DNA of 24,371 nt, from the IMG/VR virus record IMGVR_UViG_3300018082_000028, positions 1 to 24,371 of that record. One strand, 5' to 3'. The notes under the pieces were generated by a model. That model ran no database searches. It saw only the letters and a program-made list of their open reading frames with translations, and was not told where the DNA came from. Position numbers and translations under genes: made by a program. This DNA comes from a virus. Shown piece after piece: positions 2,928-18,867 of this stretch; the stretch's first letter is position 1, and each line of letters opens with the position of its first letter.

Positions 2928-3556
2928 ATCGACAAATACCAATCCTGCGGCAAACCCGGCTTGATATCATCCGAAGTCAGATTGATGCCGTTCAGAGCAT
3001 TGCCATGCCGCTCGGTGCTTGGTTGCTGGGGGCCTATCAGCACAACAATCCCGGCGATGCCGACGCCTTCAAGCACAATCCCATCGCGGGCGAGGGCATC
3101 GTCGCGGCAGAAACAACCTTTATTCTGGCCTGTGAAAAGCTTGGTGATATCCTACGTGACCCGAAGCTTCTTTCTCTGGAGGACCAAGAAACCACAGAGA
3201 AGGCCACGCGCGAGATGCTGGAGGAAAACACCAAGTTCATTGCTGTTTCAAAAGCGGCAATTGAATGGAATAACTCTCCGGCAGCCCGATTCGAGCCGGT
3301 GCTTGTTCGTTTAAACGACCTGGGATGGGCTGCCGTGTTTGGTGATATGGCGAATGACCGTGATATGATTTGCGGAATCGGAAAGTCACCCGAAAGTGCG
3401 CTTACTCACTTCAATAAGGTTTTTGCTGGCGAAGCGCCAGAGCCAGTAGTGCTTTACGCTTTGGCCAGAGAAAAGGCCCTGGAAATAAACCGGGATACAG
3501 CACCGCCAGCAGTTTTTGACTCTAATCCACTCAACCAAAACCCCGACAAATCGTGA
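2924..3556 (+). CDS. Hypothetical protein, 210 aa
   Basis: The start at 2924 overlaps the resolvase stop (ATGA). The protein has a helical N-terminus (IIRSQIDAVQSIAMPLGAWLLGAYQ), a middle part rich in Glu/Lys with likely helices (about residues 85-115), a compact region around residues 120-170 with GWAAVFGDM and CGIGKSPESALTHF, and a Pro/Asn-rich tail. Parts of the C-terminal half (NDLGWAAVF, GKSPESAL) have the look of a small RNase H-independent phage fold used for internal consistency proteins, but no motif allows a named family. No signal peptide or membrane helix is seen. Position suggests an early or middle function in the left operon. Function unknown. Confidence 0.7.
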   Translation: MNRQIPILRQTRLDIIRSQIDAVQSIAMPLGAWLLGAYQHNNPGDADAFKHNPIAGEGIVAAETTFILACEKLGDILRDPKLLSLEDQETTEKATREMLEENTKFIAVSKAAIEWNNSPAARFEPVLVRLNDLGWAAVFGDMANDRDMICGIGKSPESALTHFNKVFAGEAPEPVVLYALAREKALEINRDTAPPAVFDSNPLNQNPDKS

Positions 3557-3825
3557 AAGACATCTTGATTTTACAACATTTTTACCCTACCGATAATCAC
3601 ATAAACGCTTGGGGAGACTATAATACGCTACTGGTTGAATGTGTAAGAAATCCAGAAAAACTAGAGGAACCGCCTGTGATGCAATATTTTCTGCGTGGCA
3701 ATCGTGGAAGTAAAGAAATCACGCGCGCAGAATACCTTCAAGCCTGCGAGCAATTGGTTTTCGCGAGTTCTACGAAGTCTGATGGCTGGCGAGACGCCAT
3801 GTTGAATTTTGCTCCCCTTCGTTGA
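3553..3825 (+). CDS. Hypothetical protein, 90 aa
   Basis: The GTG start at 3553 overlaps the upstream TGA stop (GTGA, 3553-3556), the same coupled arrangement as its neighbours. The product starts MKDILILQHFYPTDNHINAWG and has a central charged region with KEITRAEYLQACEQLVFA, which reads like one amphipathic helix. No known motif is recognised. The gene is followed by a 15-bp gap before the 43-aa membrane protein gene. Function unknown; the coupling to the 210-aa gene suggests co-production. Confidence 0.65.
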   Translation: MKDILILQHFYPTDNHINAWGDYNTLLVECVRNPEKLEEPPVMQYFLRGNRGSKEITRAEYLQACEQLVFASSTKSDGWRDAMLNFAPLR

Positions 3826-3973: not shown

Positions 3974-4150
3974 ATGAAAACAATACTAATCGAACAAGTT
4001 AGCAACGGTTGGCTGGTGCGGCCTTTTCAACCTTGTGATAGCTGGGCTTCTGGTGACAGACTCCATATGGCGGTTTTTACTGATATGGAAACCCTACAAG
4101 CCGCGCTACCCCGATTACTGTCGCTAGAGTTTTTAAACCTTACAAACTGA
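3974..4150 (+). CDS. Hypothetical protein, 58 aa
   Basis: The ATG at 3974 directly follows the stop of the membrane-protein gene, which makes it a better start than in-frame codons further upstream that would run through that gene. The product (MKTILIEQVSNGWLVRPFQ...) has two N-terminal strand-like segments, then HMAVFTDMETLQAALPRLLSLEF. This beta-beta plus helix layout with a FTDMETLQAAL pattern is common in small phage proteins of unknown function. The gene ends at 4148-4150, four bases before the metallophosphoesterase start. Confidence 0.6.
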   Translation: MKTILIEQVSNGWLVRPFQPCDSWASGDRLHMAVFTDMETLQAALPRLLSLEFLNLTN

Positions 4151-4154
4151 GCCT

Positions 4155-5210
4155 ATGAAAATTCCCTGGACAAAAAAGCAAATCGCCCAATTGAAAATCT
4201 TGAAAACGGCGGGTGCAAGCCATGCCGAAATTGCAAATAGCATCGGACGGAGTAAAACCGCCGTCGACAGGAAGGTGGACCGGATGGACAAAGGGGAACT
4301 ACGCGATGCGAAGGTTAAGCGTCCTGACTTACAACTCGCGCCAGTGGAATTTGGATACATGCCGCTGACCATTACTGATTCTGGCGATTGGGTGCGTTTC
4401 GGACTTATCTCAGACACGCACTTTTGCGCGCACACCGAGCGCCTTGACGTGTGCCATAATGCTTACGACACCTTTCAAAAAGAGGGCATCCGCAATGTTC
4501 TCCACGCGGGCAATGCTATTGACGGCTATAAGGAGAGGCTGAACGGAGGCGCGGTGTATGAAACCACCATTGACGGGCAAGTGGATTATCTTCTCGACAA
4601 ATACCCGGCGCGGAAAAATATCACGACGCACTTCATAACTGCCGGACAAGAGCATGAAACGTGGATGAGTGGCGACGGGTTTAATATCGGGCATTATATC
4701 GAACTACTTGCGAGAGAACGAGGGCGTAACGACCTGCATTATCTTGGCTCGGTCGAGGCCGACGTAGAAATCAAGACAGGAACTAAGAGCACGATTATCA
4801 AAGTTCAGCATCCGGGCGGAGGAAGTTCGTATGCCCGGTCGTATGCCGGTCAGAAACAGGTGGACAGCTTCCAAGGCGGGGAAAAGCCTAACATTCTCAT
4901 ACAGGGACATTTTCATGTCGGCAACTACATGGTTGAGCGAAACGTTCACGTCATAAACATGCCCGGTTGCCAAGACCAGACCGTGTTTGCCCGCAAGAAG
5001 AGGCTCCGCATGGAGGTTGGATTCGCCCTGTTAGAGTTTAAAATCAATCCGGCTGACGGGTCGGTGACGCGCTGTCGCGTTGAATTTTCTATGTTCTGGG
5101 ATAGAAAATACCATCAAAAGTTTTTGAAGTCTGACCGGTTGCTCAAGAACGGACAGCTAATCATCAACCGATCAAAACTATCCCGCTCACTAAGGGTAAG
5201 GTCGCGTTAG
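4155..5210 (+). CDS. HTH-metallophosphoesterase, with altered metal motifs and an extended tail
   Basis: The product is 351 residues. Residues 5-45 form a helix-turn-helix (KKQIAQLKILKTAG...HAEIANSIGRSKTAV). Residues 80-300 are a calcineurin-like phosphoesterase: motif I SDTH (D87, H89), motif II HAGNAIDG (N120 where the family has the metal-bridging Asp of GD), motif III GQEHE (165-168, where the family has GNHD/E), then HPGGGSSY (H219) and GHFHVG (H252, H254). Such enzymes hydrolyse phosphomono- or diesters with two metal ions. Phage members may process DNA or nucleotides. Two of the classical ligand positions are substituted, so activity is uncertain. The last 12 residues (SKLSRSLRVRSR) are read from DNA that codes for the following endonuclease in another frame; a single base change at 5173 would place a stop after INR. 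See findings. Confidence 0.85.
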   Translation: MKIPWTKKQIAQLKILKTAGASHAEIANSIGRSKTAVDRKVDRMDKGELRDAKVKRPDLQLAPVEFGYMPLTITDSGDWVRFGLISDTHFCAHTERLDVCHNAYDTFQKEGIRNVLHAGNAIDGYKERLNGGAVYETTIDGQVDYLLDKYPARKNITTHFITAGQEHETWMSGDGFNIGHYIELLARERGRNDLHYLGSVEADVEIKTGTKSTIIKVQHPGGGSSYARSYAGQKQVDSFQGGEKPNILIQGHFHVGNYMVERNVHVINMPGCQDQTVFARKKRLRMEVGFALLEFKINPADGSVTRCRVEFSMFWDRKYHQKFLKSDRLLKNGQLIINRSKLSRSLRVRSR

Positions 5211-5656
5211 TTGATGACGAAGATTTTGGTTATCTCAATCAATGGAAGTGGTATGCACACCGGGCTTGGGGCGATACGTTTTATGCGGCCCGAATGAACC
5301 CCAGGCCAGATAAAAAGGTCATACTCATGCACAGGGAACTTTTTAAAGATTCGCGGCGCTGTGACCACAAAGACAGAAACGGATTGAATAATCAAAAGAT
5401 AAATCTGCGCCCCGCCAACAAGCGGCAGAATGCGCGAAATCGAGGGCCGCAGAGAAACAATACTTCGGGATTTAAAGGTGTAAGTTGGTGTCGTAATGGG
5501 AAAAAATGGACCGCTCGCGTTATGTATAGGCGGAGATACAGATTTCTTGGTTATTTTTTGGATAAGATTTCAGCGGTCCGCGCCTACGACACCGCCGCCA
5601 GAAAATACTTTGGAGAGTTCGCCTCTCCAAATTTTACCGGACCGGTTTGCACATAA
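5171..5656 (+). CDS. HNH-AP2 homing-type endonuclease, start codon lost (ATC)
   Basis: Family-like sequence begins at 5171 (KTIPLTKGKVALVDDEDF), where such proteins normally start MKTIPLT. Here the first codon is ATC, and the first in-frame ATG is only at 5294 (41 codons on), which would remove the N-terminal beta domain. The frame is open from 5135. Counting from 5171 gives 161 residues. An HNH nuclease lies at about residues 50-85 (LMHRELF with H54, DHKDRNGLNN with D65, H66 and N70, then NLRPAN). An AP2 DNA-binding domain lies at about 99-154 (SGFKGVSWCRNGKKWTARV...YDTAARKYFGEFASPNF). HNH-AP2 proteins are free-standing homing endonucleases that nick or cut DNA and spread as mobile genes. 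It sits directly after the metallophosphoesterase gene. Whether it is translated from ATC, from 5294, or is dead cannot be told from sequence. The 3' end at 5656 is intact. Confidence 0.75.
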   Translation: MKTIPLTKGKVALVDDEDFGYLNQWKWYAHRAWGDTFYAARMNPRPDKKVILMHRELFKDSRRCDHKDRNGLNNQKINLRPANKRQNARNRGPQRNNTSGFKGVSWCRNGKKWTARVMYRRRYRFLGYFLDKISAVRAYDTAARKYFGEFASPNFTGPVCT

Positions 5657-5662
5657 AAAACT

Positions 5663-6001
5663 ATGAAAATCATTCAGACTCCCACCCCGCCAAGCAAATA
5701 TTCTTGGGGGGACCCAACGCCCTTCGACCAATACGACCTTCGTGAATTCGACGGACGCGCGATTGATAAGATTGTTTATTGGTATGCTCGCGGCGGCTAC
5801 GAAGGCAGCGGCCATCTGCTCGTGTATCTAAAAGGCGCTTGGCACCACAAAGACCTGAGCCATTGTTCCTGCTATGGGCCGCTCGACGACTTGGACTTCA
5901 GTAAGCCGATTAGTTCGCTGTCGGCTTGGCTTGAGCAGGCAACACCCGAATTTCGGGCCGAAGTTCAGCCCTTAATTGATGCGATACAGAACGATAAATG
6001 A
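5663..6001 (+). CDS. Hypothetical protein, 112 aa
   Basis: The ATG at 5663 lies seven bases after the endonuclease stop. The product has a Pro-rich N-terminus (QTPTPPSKYSW), a central segment with two strand-like stretches (KIVYWYARGGYEGSGHLLVYLKG), then HHKDLSHCSCYGPLDDL and a helical C-terminus (SLSAWLEQATPEFRAEVQPLIDAI). The HCSCYGP segment with clustered His and Cys looks conserved and could bind metal, but I do not recognise the family. No signal peptide or membrane helix. It is the last well-supported gene of the left operon. Confidence 0.65.
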   Translation: MKIIQTPTPPSKYSWGDPTPFDQYDLREFDGRAIDKIVYWYARGGYEGSGHLLVYLKGAWHHKDLSHCSCYGPLDDLDFSKPISSLSAWLEQATPEFRAEVQPLIDAIQNDK

Positions 6002-6078
6002 GTCCCTGGGAAAGATTCATTCGTCGGCGTGTGGGCGAGCTACATCCGAAAATTTTTGGCATCGAACCGCCGGGCTGA
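5998..6078 (+). CDS. Possible 26-aa ORF at the end of the left operon
   Basis: The ATG at 5998 overlaps the TGA stop of the 112-aa gene (ATGA, 5998-6001), exactly as at many other junctions of this operon. The product reads MSPWERFIRRRVGELHPKIF and ends at 6076-6078 inside a short inverted repeat. It is basic and may form one helix. At this length the ORF could be chance; the coupled start is the only positive argument. Confidence 0.3.
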   Translation: MSPWERFIRRRVGELHPKIFGIEPPG

Positions 6079-6083
6079 AGCCC
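6072..6083. terminator. Short inverted repeat at the convergent junction
   Basis: A perfect 12-base inverted repeat (GGGC-TGAA-GCCC) sits in the 8-bp gap between the last + strand stop (6078) and the first - strand stop (6087). It could act as a minimal two-way terminator hairpin. It lacks a T-run on either side, and the stem is only 4-5 bp, so termination by this hairpin alone is doubtful. Confidence 0.3.
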
Positions 6084-6086
6084 ATA

Positions 6087-6800
6087 TTAGGTCAATATCG
6101 CTTGCCCAAAAACGAAGATGGTTGAAAAAGCGGTTAGGACTAACCCCAAGACCGGTTTCAAAATCGACCTGAGTAACTCGCCGGAACCCGGCGAAGGACC
6201 TGACAACGGACCCTGTTGCTGGGAATTTTTTATTTTTGCACTCAAGGCTCTCCGTTGCGCTCCTGCTGACGTTTCGGACGGAAGGGTCGTGGACGCCTGC
6301 GGCACTGCCGGAACGGGTGCGTTTTTATAGACCCCTGACGGCCCGGCGTTATTGAAGCTGGGGTTGTTCAGTCCAGCTTTCTTAACTGTAGTATTCACCT
6401 GCTCGAAGGGCAGCGCGATTTCGGACAGCTTCCCTGCCTTATCTGCGGCCTGGAGCTCTTCCCCAGACAAATAGAACCGGTTGAAAATGACGCCCAAGTC
6501 GCCACCAAGCGACCGATACATACCCAGCCCGGCTTTTATCATACCATCCTTATTCGCCGCGAGGGCCTTGCCCTCTGGGCGCTTTTGGAAGTCTGCAATC
6601 GTCGCTGAGACGGCTGGCGGCGCGCCCGCGACGACCGCTTGTAGGGCCGGAATCTTCAAAAGCTCTTCCGGCAAGCCCGGCGCTCCTTCCGGCGCGGTAG
6701 GCGCTTCAGGTGCAGTCGGCTCGGCAGGGGTTACAATTTCTTCAGCGGGGGCAACTGCCGCCGACGGGTTTAAAGGTTGAATCAGTTCTTCGTTTGCCAT
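6087..6800 (-). CDS. Pro/Ala/Glu-rich protein with C-terminal hydrophobic segment, 237 aa
   Basis: This is the last gene of the right (-) operon, 19 bases after the 52-aa gene. Residues about 13-50 are a low-complexity Ala/Pro/Glu linker. Residues 50-140 look folded and helical (LLKIPALQAVVAGAPPAVSATIADF, then GLGMYRSLGGDLGVIFNRFYLS). Residues 145-205 are Pro/Ser/Gln-rich. The C-terminus (about 213-237: KPVLGLVLTAFSTIFVFGQAILT) is hydrophobic and could insert in a membrane. The linker style matches the 554- and 1939-aa proteins upstream, so it may be another virion component. A role in lysis is conceivable because of the terminal hydrophobic segment. No family recognised. Confidence 0.65.
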   Translation of the reverse strand: MANEELIQPLNPSAAVAPAEEIVTPAEPTAPEAPTAPEGAPGLPEELLKIPALQAVVAGAPPAVSATIADFQKRPEGKALAANKDGMIKAGLGMYRSLGGDLGVIFNRFYLSGEELQAADKAGKLSEIALPFEQVNTTVKKAGLNNPSFNNAGPSGVYKNAPVPAVPQASTTLPSETSAGAQRRALSAKIKNSQQQGPLSGPSPGSGELLRSILKPVLGLVLTAFSTIFVFGQAILT

Positions 6801-16535: not shown

Positions 16536-17087
16536 CTATCCCCCGCTCCACCTGGCACCTTTTTTAAAATTCTCTGTAGCGAACAGAGGTTGAAGGTTCG
16601 TATAATGAAAACATTGTTTCTGATGCTCTGAGTTTGAAAAATCAAAGCTCGCGCAGGGGCGAACGTGGTCAACATGCCAAATCGCACCGTAATTTCCCCA
16701 TGACATTCCGGGGCGAAATTGTTTTTCTAAGTAAACTCGAAGTTCTGGTAAAGGAATTCCTACAAGCTCTTTGGTGTGCCCGACTTTTATCTTTCCCTTC
16801 AATGCGTCAGATAGCCGTGTTCCTAAAATCTTCCTAAGCTTTTGTTCTGGAGTCTGAAACTTATAGGATTTTTTCCTTTGCTCGCGCCGCTTTTCTGGAC
16901 TCCGACTCGGCCAATCTTTCTTCGCCGGGTTATTTTTTCGCCATTCTTTTGCGCGTTTTAAAACACGTTCCCGGAACGCTTTGTCAACGCTATATCGTTG
17001 GCGCTCGTGCTCCCGCAAGGCATCATGATTAACCATCCGATAGGCGGCCTGATACCGGGCTTGATATTCTTTAGGGCTACAAGTCAA
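16536..17087 (-). CDS. HNH endonuclease (WHxDHxxP type)
   Basis: The product is 183 residues from a TTG start at 17087 that overlaps the upstream GNAT gene by 11 bases. No clear Shine-Dalgarno sequence, so the start is tentative. The N-terminal half is very basic and helical (about 35-85). The nuclease lies at about 133-180: IWHVDHVRPCASFDF (H138, D140, H141), then CFHYTNLQPLFA (N164) and NFKKGAR. This is a common free-standing phage HNH family, which nicks or cuts DNA and spreads by homing. It separates the GNAT-like gene from the 315-aa virion gene, an insertion site typical of such selfish genes. A relic of a close relative lies at 15004-15111. Confidence 0.85.
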   Translation of the reverse strand: MTCSPKEYQARYQAAYRMVNHDALREHERQRYSVDKAFRERVLKRAKEWRKNNPAKKDWPSRSPEKRREQRKKSYKFQTPEQKLRKILGTRLSDALKGKIKVGHTKELVGIPLPELRVYLEKQFRPGMSWGNYGAIWHVDHVRPCASFDFSNSEHQKQCFHYTNLQPLFATENFKKGARWSGG

Positions 17088-18351: not shown

Positions 18352-18867
18352 TTAATAGTGTCTGACGTCTTGTAGTTTATGAGGGGCATACTGCGTCAGT
18401 AGTTCTTCTGCCCACTTAACTAAATCTTCCACGGATTGTTTCGGCCCGTGCCCGCCCGTTCGTAGCTCTAAATTTTCTGGTCGGTTGTCACCTTTGACAC
18501 CGTTTTTGTGATGCACGGTTTCGGACGCAAGCAACGAACGGCCCAGAATCTTTTCCATTACTCGCCGGTGTTCGCGTTGCTTTTCCGGGCCTATGTGAAC
18601 GTATCCCTGCCCGTCCACCGTGCGACCGCCTTTCCAGGCATAGTGGGCGACACCCCGGCAAATATTTTCTTTTCGCAGACAGCCACAGCTTCTCGTGTGT
18701 CCATTAGTGAGTTGCGACCCCCTAACGCTTCTAGCAGTCCCGCCGCAATCGCAACTGCAAACCCACATAGAACAGGTGCTTCCATCAGGAAAGCTTTTAT
18801 TAGGTAGCCTCGCGGCAACCGTCAGTTTTTCAAAACGCATCCCCAGTTTGATTTTTGTTCGGCGCAT
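18352..18867 (-). CDS. HNH endonuclease with N-terminal zinc-ribbon-like part
   Basis: The product is 171 residues from an ATG at 18867. Residues 30-64 hold a cysteine cluster (VCSCDCGG with C37, C39 and C41, then SCGCL with C61 and C63), a pattern common in front of HNH domains for zinc and DNA binding. Residues 97-140 form the nuclease: REHRRVMEKILGR (H100), TVHHKNGVKGDNRPENLEL (H119, H120, N122, N128, N132). The family is a frequent free-standing homing-type endonuclease in phages. It is inserted between the 525-aa and 267-aa virion genes, with 15 and 9 bp gaps. Only a short AGG lies before the start. It is of a different subfamily from the one at 16536-17087. Confidence 0.85.
   Translation of the reverse strand: MRRTKIKLGMRFEKLTVAARLPNKSFPDGSTCSMWVCSCDCGGTARSVRGSQLTNGHTRSCGCLRKENICRGVAHYAWKGGRTVDGQGYVHIGPEKQREHRRVMEKILGRSLLASETVHHKNGVKGDNRPENLELRTGGHGPKQSVEDLVKWAEELLTQYAPHKLQDVRHY

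Follow-up and report, generated by a model that had tools for sequence, protein, structure and literature searches.

The window, an IMG/VR virus record of 24,371 bases, carries on its plus strand a gene for a calcineurin-like metallophosphoesterase with an N-terminal HTH-like segment (nt 4155–5210, 351 aa), which runs past the stop position of its family and overlaps an HNH-AP2 homing-endonuclease-type ORF lacking a canonical start (nt 5171–5656, +). The phosphoesterase was assigned from PF12850, from its relatives (loci L245 to L282) and from Foldseek; the PF12850 match was marginal (27.8 bits versus a cutoff of 27), and the best Foldseek match of the predicted model was the PolD DP1 exonuclease subunit. 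The metal-site motifs DTH, HPGG and GHFH were present, so that the protein has the DTH, HPGG and GHxH motifs, as well as the predicted fold, in common with calcineurin-like phosphoesterases (PF12850). However, its GNAIDG and AGQEHE depart from the consensus GDxxD and GNH[DE], partly as in relatives of its clade: the clade has GN for the GD of GDxxD, and at the GNHD-like motif close relatives read GDDHEGW where the window reads AGQEHETW. At residues 161–170 (nt 4635–4664), the window has ITAGQEHETW, with one residue extra, where 12 of 13 close relatives have ITGDDHEGW.

The endonuclease ORF matched phrog_99 (2.6e-36) and phrog_4578 (1.2e-24) and retained every one of the 35 columns that are shared by 85% or more of 89 HNH-AP2 relatives. 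An HNH motif was present, with D65, H66, N74, N78, R80 and N87 matching columns conserved in at least 97% of relatives. The C-terminal AP2 domain was recognized by a Foldseek match of the predicted model (pLDDT 93.4) to 7et5 (E 4.7e-4), being sub-threshold by sequence alone (Pfam AP2, 16.1 bits, below the cutoff of 33.3). The protein possesses the same N-terminal module, HNH motif and AP2 domain as the free-standing phage HNH-AP2 proteins of PHROG 99/4578, whose genes often overlap the upstream gene by 4 nt, but the window has no canonical start at or upstream of the family start column; it is a disabled or non-canonically started copy. On the minus strand, the window also encodes an endonuclease VII-like nuclease (phrog_1035, nt 16536–17087), with a relative in locus L002 some 2.3 kb away from the HNH-AP2 gene there, and an HNH nuclease (PF13392, phrog_20891, nt 18352–18867).

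At the junction, nt 5165–5182 reads CAACCGATCAAAACTATC. The first-pass annotation had placed the beginning of HNH-AP2 homology at an ATC (nt 5171–5173, +), followed by AAA ACT ATC CCG, and a TCA codon at nt 5172–5174 (+) in the phosphoesterase frame; the bases of both were confirmed. It had likewise described a 12-residue read-through of the phosphoesterase, which indeed runs SKLSRSLRVRSR (nt 5172–5207, +; the S of TCA counted) and then meets TAG (nt 5208–5210, +), the stop now used. The HNH frame is open from nt 5135 to TAA at nt 5654–5656, and no ATG, GTG or TTG occurs in the 12 open codons upstream of nt 5171 (nt 5135–5170). An upstream start such as that of M-A-K relatives (see below) was rejected on this ground, the codon preceding nt 5171 being CCG. 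By eye, no Shine-Dalgarno-like site was seen at normal spacing before nt 5171. Since the endonuclease is read in the −1 frame relative to the phosphoesterase and an AAAA run is present (A AAA, nt 5174–5177), a −1 ribosomal frameshift in the overlap could be imagined to fuse the two proteins; such an event is extremely improbable and was rejected, because an in-register X XXY YYZ slippery heptamer is absent and the downstream RNA is no more structured than shuffles (z +0.71). Such a fusion was seen in none of the relatives found.

Four-base overlaps are favoured in the operon of the window. The ATGA overlaps reported earlier at nt 1380, 1502 and 2924 are real, another lies at nt 3974–3977 (+), and the series extends beyond ATGA to GTGA at nt 3553 and TTGA at nt 3822. 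No stop/start codon overlap exists at the phosphoesterase–endonuclease junction, which reads ATCA in the window versus ATGA or GTGA in six of the seven relatives described below.

The start column of the endonuclease was examined in two partly overlapping samples of HNH-AP2 loci from IMG/VR, 91 collected by protein similarity and 88 by an internal DNA motif and hence independently of the start codon. A canonical start stood exactly at the column of the window's ATC in 78 of the 91 (66 ATG, 10 GTG and 2 TTG); the remaining 13 had a canonical start elsewhere in frame, in most cases at the codon just upstream (M-A-K...). The second sample gave 73/88 at the column, the other 15 having an upstream in-frame start. 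ATC was found at this column in 0/91 and 0/88, and relatives without a canonical in-frame start at or near the column also numbered 0/91 and 0/88. The family therefore normally has a canonical start where the window has ATC, as had been proposed. In 21/91 and 25/88 relatives, the start formed an NTGA overlap with a preceding open frame that was 60 codons or longer, and the same 4-base overlap is annotated in Gordonia phage Faith5x5, Microcystis phage MaeS, Pseudanabaena phage Pam5 and Methanosarcina virus MetMV. Other altered copies were seen in the family. An ORF of L222 that starts MKTIPLTQGQVALAYDTAAKKYFGEFALLN joins the HNH-AP2 N-terminus straight to the end of the AP2 domain and looks like an internal deletion derivative. 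In L050, an HNH-AP2 gene that is intact in all other respects has an in-frame TAG (nt 1576) just past its conserved KW; this TAG is either a nonsense mutation or a codon that the phage reads as a residue, the longest stop-free run growing from 497 to 663 codons when TAG is not counted as a stop.

The first canonical in-frame start of the window's endonuclease, and the only one downstream near the N-terminus, is ATG at nt 5294 (residue 42). Initiation there would yield a 120-aa product (nt 5294–5656, +) that keeps the HNH and AP2 parts and loses residues 1–41; the core of residues 42–161 would remain, and the match to phrog_4578 (130 positions) begins at residue 38. However, this ATG has no Shine-Dalgarno-like site and lies 83 nt past the upstream stop, and the lost residues form ordered strands and a helix in the predicted fold and hold highly conserved columns, e.g. 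D15, D16, D18 and W27. Production of such a truncated enzyme is thus a very remote prospect.

No relative of the phosphoesterase was found by a single-protein search, nor by a contig profile search with the first alignment (A1); relatives were reached through progressively closer alignments. They comprised L272 to L276 (51–56% identity) and L245 and L246 (47% identity, near-identical to each other). These contigs have in common with the window a DUF5906-like (primase-like) protein, a sigma factor and RuvC upstream of the phosphoesterase and a convergent gene, at nt 6087–6800 in the window, downstream of the junction. In all seven syntenic contigs, the phosphoesterase ends opposite R339 of the window, with its stop at window codon 340, the codon that is TCA in the window. 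The stop is TGA in six of the seven, in every case inside ATGA or GTGA, and TAA in L272; the phosphoesterases of L278 and L282 end within one residue of the same point. The end at residue 339 was placed by gapless BLOSUM62 alignment together with five closer relatives, which overruled a MAFFT alignment (A7) in which the four C-terminal residues of L246 were scattered opposite the tail. The 12-residue tail was absent from all phosphoesterase relatives examined, and a combination of ATC with a conserved tail, which had been named as the observation that would refute the single-base explanation, was not encountered. The tail is thus best explained by a lost stop, as suggested in the first pass.

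Loss of both start and stop through a single base at nt 5173 was borne out by the relatives of both families; the ancestral G postulated at this base was matched in six of the seven junctions, the seventh having A (TAA). A caution applies: since an HNH gene starting with ATG-A has a one in three chance of placing TGA in the frame of the upstream gene, the double effect alone is weak evidence. What decides the matter, and supports it most strongly, is that the relatives of the phosphoesterase all but share one stop position. Compared with both families, the base at nt 5173 is derived, and it accounts for the absence of start and stop alike.

ATC is among the start codons of NCBI table 11. The window's AUC might accordingly serve as a weak start giving a small amount of full-length endonuclease, perhaps tolerated as the enzyme is costly; the intact ORF is what would be expected of a working gene with such a start. 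The activity of ATC in E. coli reporters varies widely, the codon being listed in both the 0.01–6.5% and the 19–44% of ATG activity groups (PMC6925171). This is nevertheless quite unlikely, given that ATC occurred in no relative and that a Shine-Dalgarno-like site at normal spacing is absent. Furthermore, translational coupling is strictly dependent on overlap or near-overlap, with a distance of about 20 nt nearly abolishing it (PMC10666635; PMC6728339), and the change at this base put the stop of the upstream gene 36 bases further on, thereby removing coupling.

None of L245/L246 and L272 to L276 carries an HNH-AP2 gene at the junction, and among other contigs no gene of the window's type was found after the phosphoesterase except for a remnant in L274. 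In this contig, a 14-codon ORF (nt 4038–4080), MKEIRLTNGGAVFP followed by a stop, opens at the ATGA of the phosphoesterase, begins MKEIRLTNGG... and resembles the HNH-AP2 N-terminus; the beginning of a small ORF (MKKLLLDPAV...) overlaps it in turn. It scored 14.4 bits with a position-specific score derived from 77 HNH-AP2 N-termini. When 93,624 ATG/GTG codons in all loci were scored, 177 reached the value of L274, but only seven, including L274, lacked the VD motif, and four of these seven belong to HNH-AP2 genes whose motifs vary or which have an internal deletion. Because so few codons lacking the VD motif score that high, the L274 ORF is probably what is left of an HNH-AP2 gene that stood at this position. 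Directly after its phosphoesterase stop, at the point taken by the HNH gene in the window, L272 has an endonuclease VII-like gene (nt 4009–4308; phrog_2633, 1.1e-15). In L245/L246, a 190-aa ORF lies in GTGA, and other ORFs lie in ATGA in L273 and L276. The ORF following the phosphoesterase in L246 (nt 4029) starts V-K-T-I-L, compared with I-K-T-I-P at nt 5171 of the window; its remainder is not HNH-AP2, and the likeness is probably a coincidence. Such differing cargo at one point, namely the HNH-AP2-like remnant, the endonuclease VII-like gene and others, suggests that the site after the phosphoesterase stop is a recurrent insertion site for mobile nucleases. In addition, a phosphoesterase relative of 47% identity in L028 (nt 4599–6668; same contig as L256) contains an intein (Pfam matches Intein_splicing and Hint_2), inserted at the cysteine equivalent to that of INMPGC|QDQTVF in the window and ending in VVVHNC; this host gene is thus also the target of another type of mobile element.

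Taken together, it is considered likely that a real and recent substitution cost the endonuclease both its start codon and its stop/start coupling at once, leaving it untranslated or nearly so. A free-standing HNH-AP2 homing-type endonuclease gene lies directly behind the phosphoesterase gene and, judging from relatives, would formerly have shared bases with it in a 4-base overlap of phosphoesterase stop and endonuclease start. This ancestral state is pieced together from relatives of the one gene, relatives of the other and the short L274 remnant; an intact HNH-AP2 gene at exactly this junction was not found in any close relative, which counts against the explanation. The junction itself shows that nt 5173 differs from the overlap state and that start and stop are lost together. 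Ribosomes translating the phosphoesterase would, as follows from the sequence, run 12 codons further to the TAG at nt 5208. As they would no longer stop at the endonuclease start, neither ordinary initiation nor coupling should give the full-length enzyme, which is presumed silent. The endonuclease coding sequence is otherwise intact, so that either the lesion is recent or the gene is still functional; the intact remainder suggests an early decay stage in the gain-and-loss cycle of homing endonucleases. As for the host protein, residues 320–351 had pLDDT values below 50, so that in the model the basic tail lengthens an end already predicted to be disordered; the tail is therefore probably tolerated and presumably harmless.

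The source is a metagenomic contig, the rest of the endonuclease ORF is intact, and a pattern search of IMG/VR for the exact junction with N at nt 5173 gave no match in any other contig, although near-identical records may be absent from the set. These points would fit an error of sequencing or assembly, or a minor strain variant in the consensus, the actual phage then having start and stop overlapped and intact. However, a consensus seldom has a substitution error at any one particular codon, and genes elsewhere in the contig are intact, including an ORF of 1939 codons. Decay of homing endonucleases, by contrast, is common (PMC1762336). An error is accordingly unlikely, and the substitution is probably real. 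It is very unlikely, on the other hand, that the lost stop and start are being maintained, with endonuclease made at a very low level from AUC (or by a rare frameshift fusion) and a new basic tail on the host gene; if true, the selfish nuclease would be throttled.

The preferred reading, a single recent substitution, resembles the degenerating homing endonuclease genes of the recurrent invasion model of Goddard and Burt, in which a small lesion disables the frame. Frame-destroying deletions, one of them removing the start codon, have been described in a homing endonuclease gene (PMC1762336); in the window, unlike in that case, one substitution would also remove the stop of the neighbour, the two codons having overlapped. 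The putative ancestral junction would correspond to the common −4 nt overlap of ATGA translational coupling (PMC6728339; PMC10666635), whereas this overlap is destroyed in the window. Homing-endonuclease decay, including start-codon loss, is already well known, and the novelty is modest; the case is ordinary in kind but unusually clean, its value being that both sides are cleanly documented by relatives. A stop/start overlap couples a selfish gene to its host gene, so that a change of a single base can inactivate the parasite and extend the host protein at once. With both halves checkable against relatives, the junction is a compact natural example of homing-endonuclease decay.
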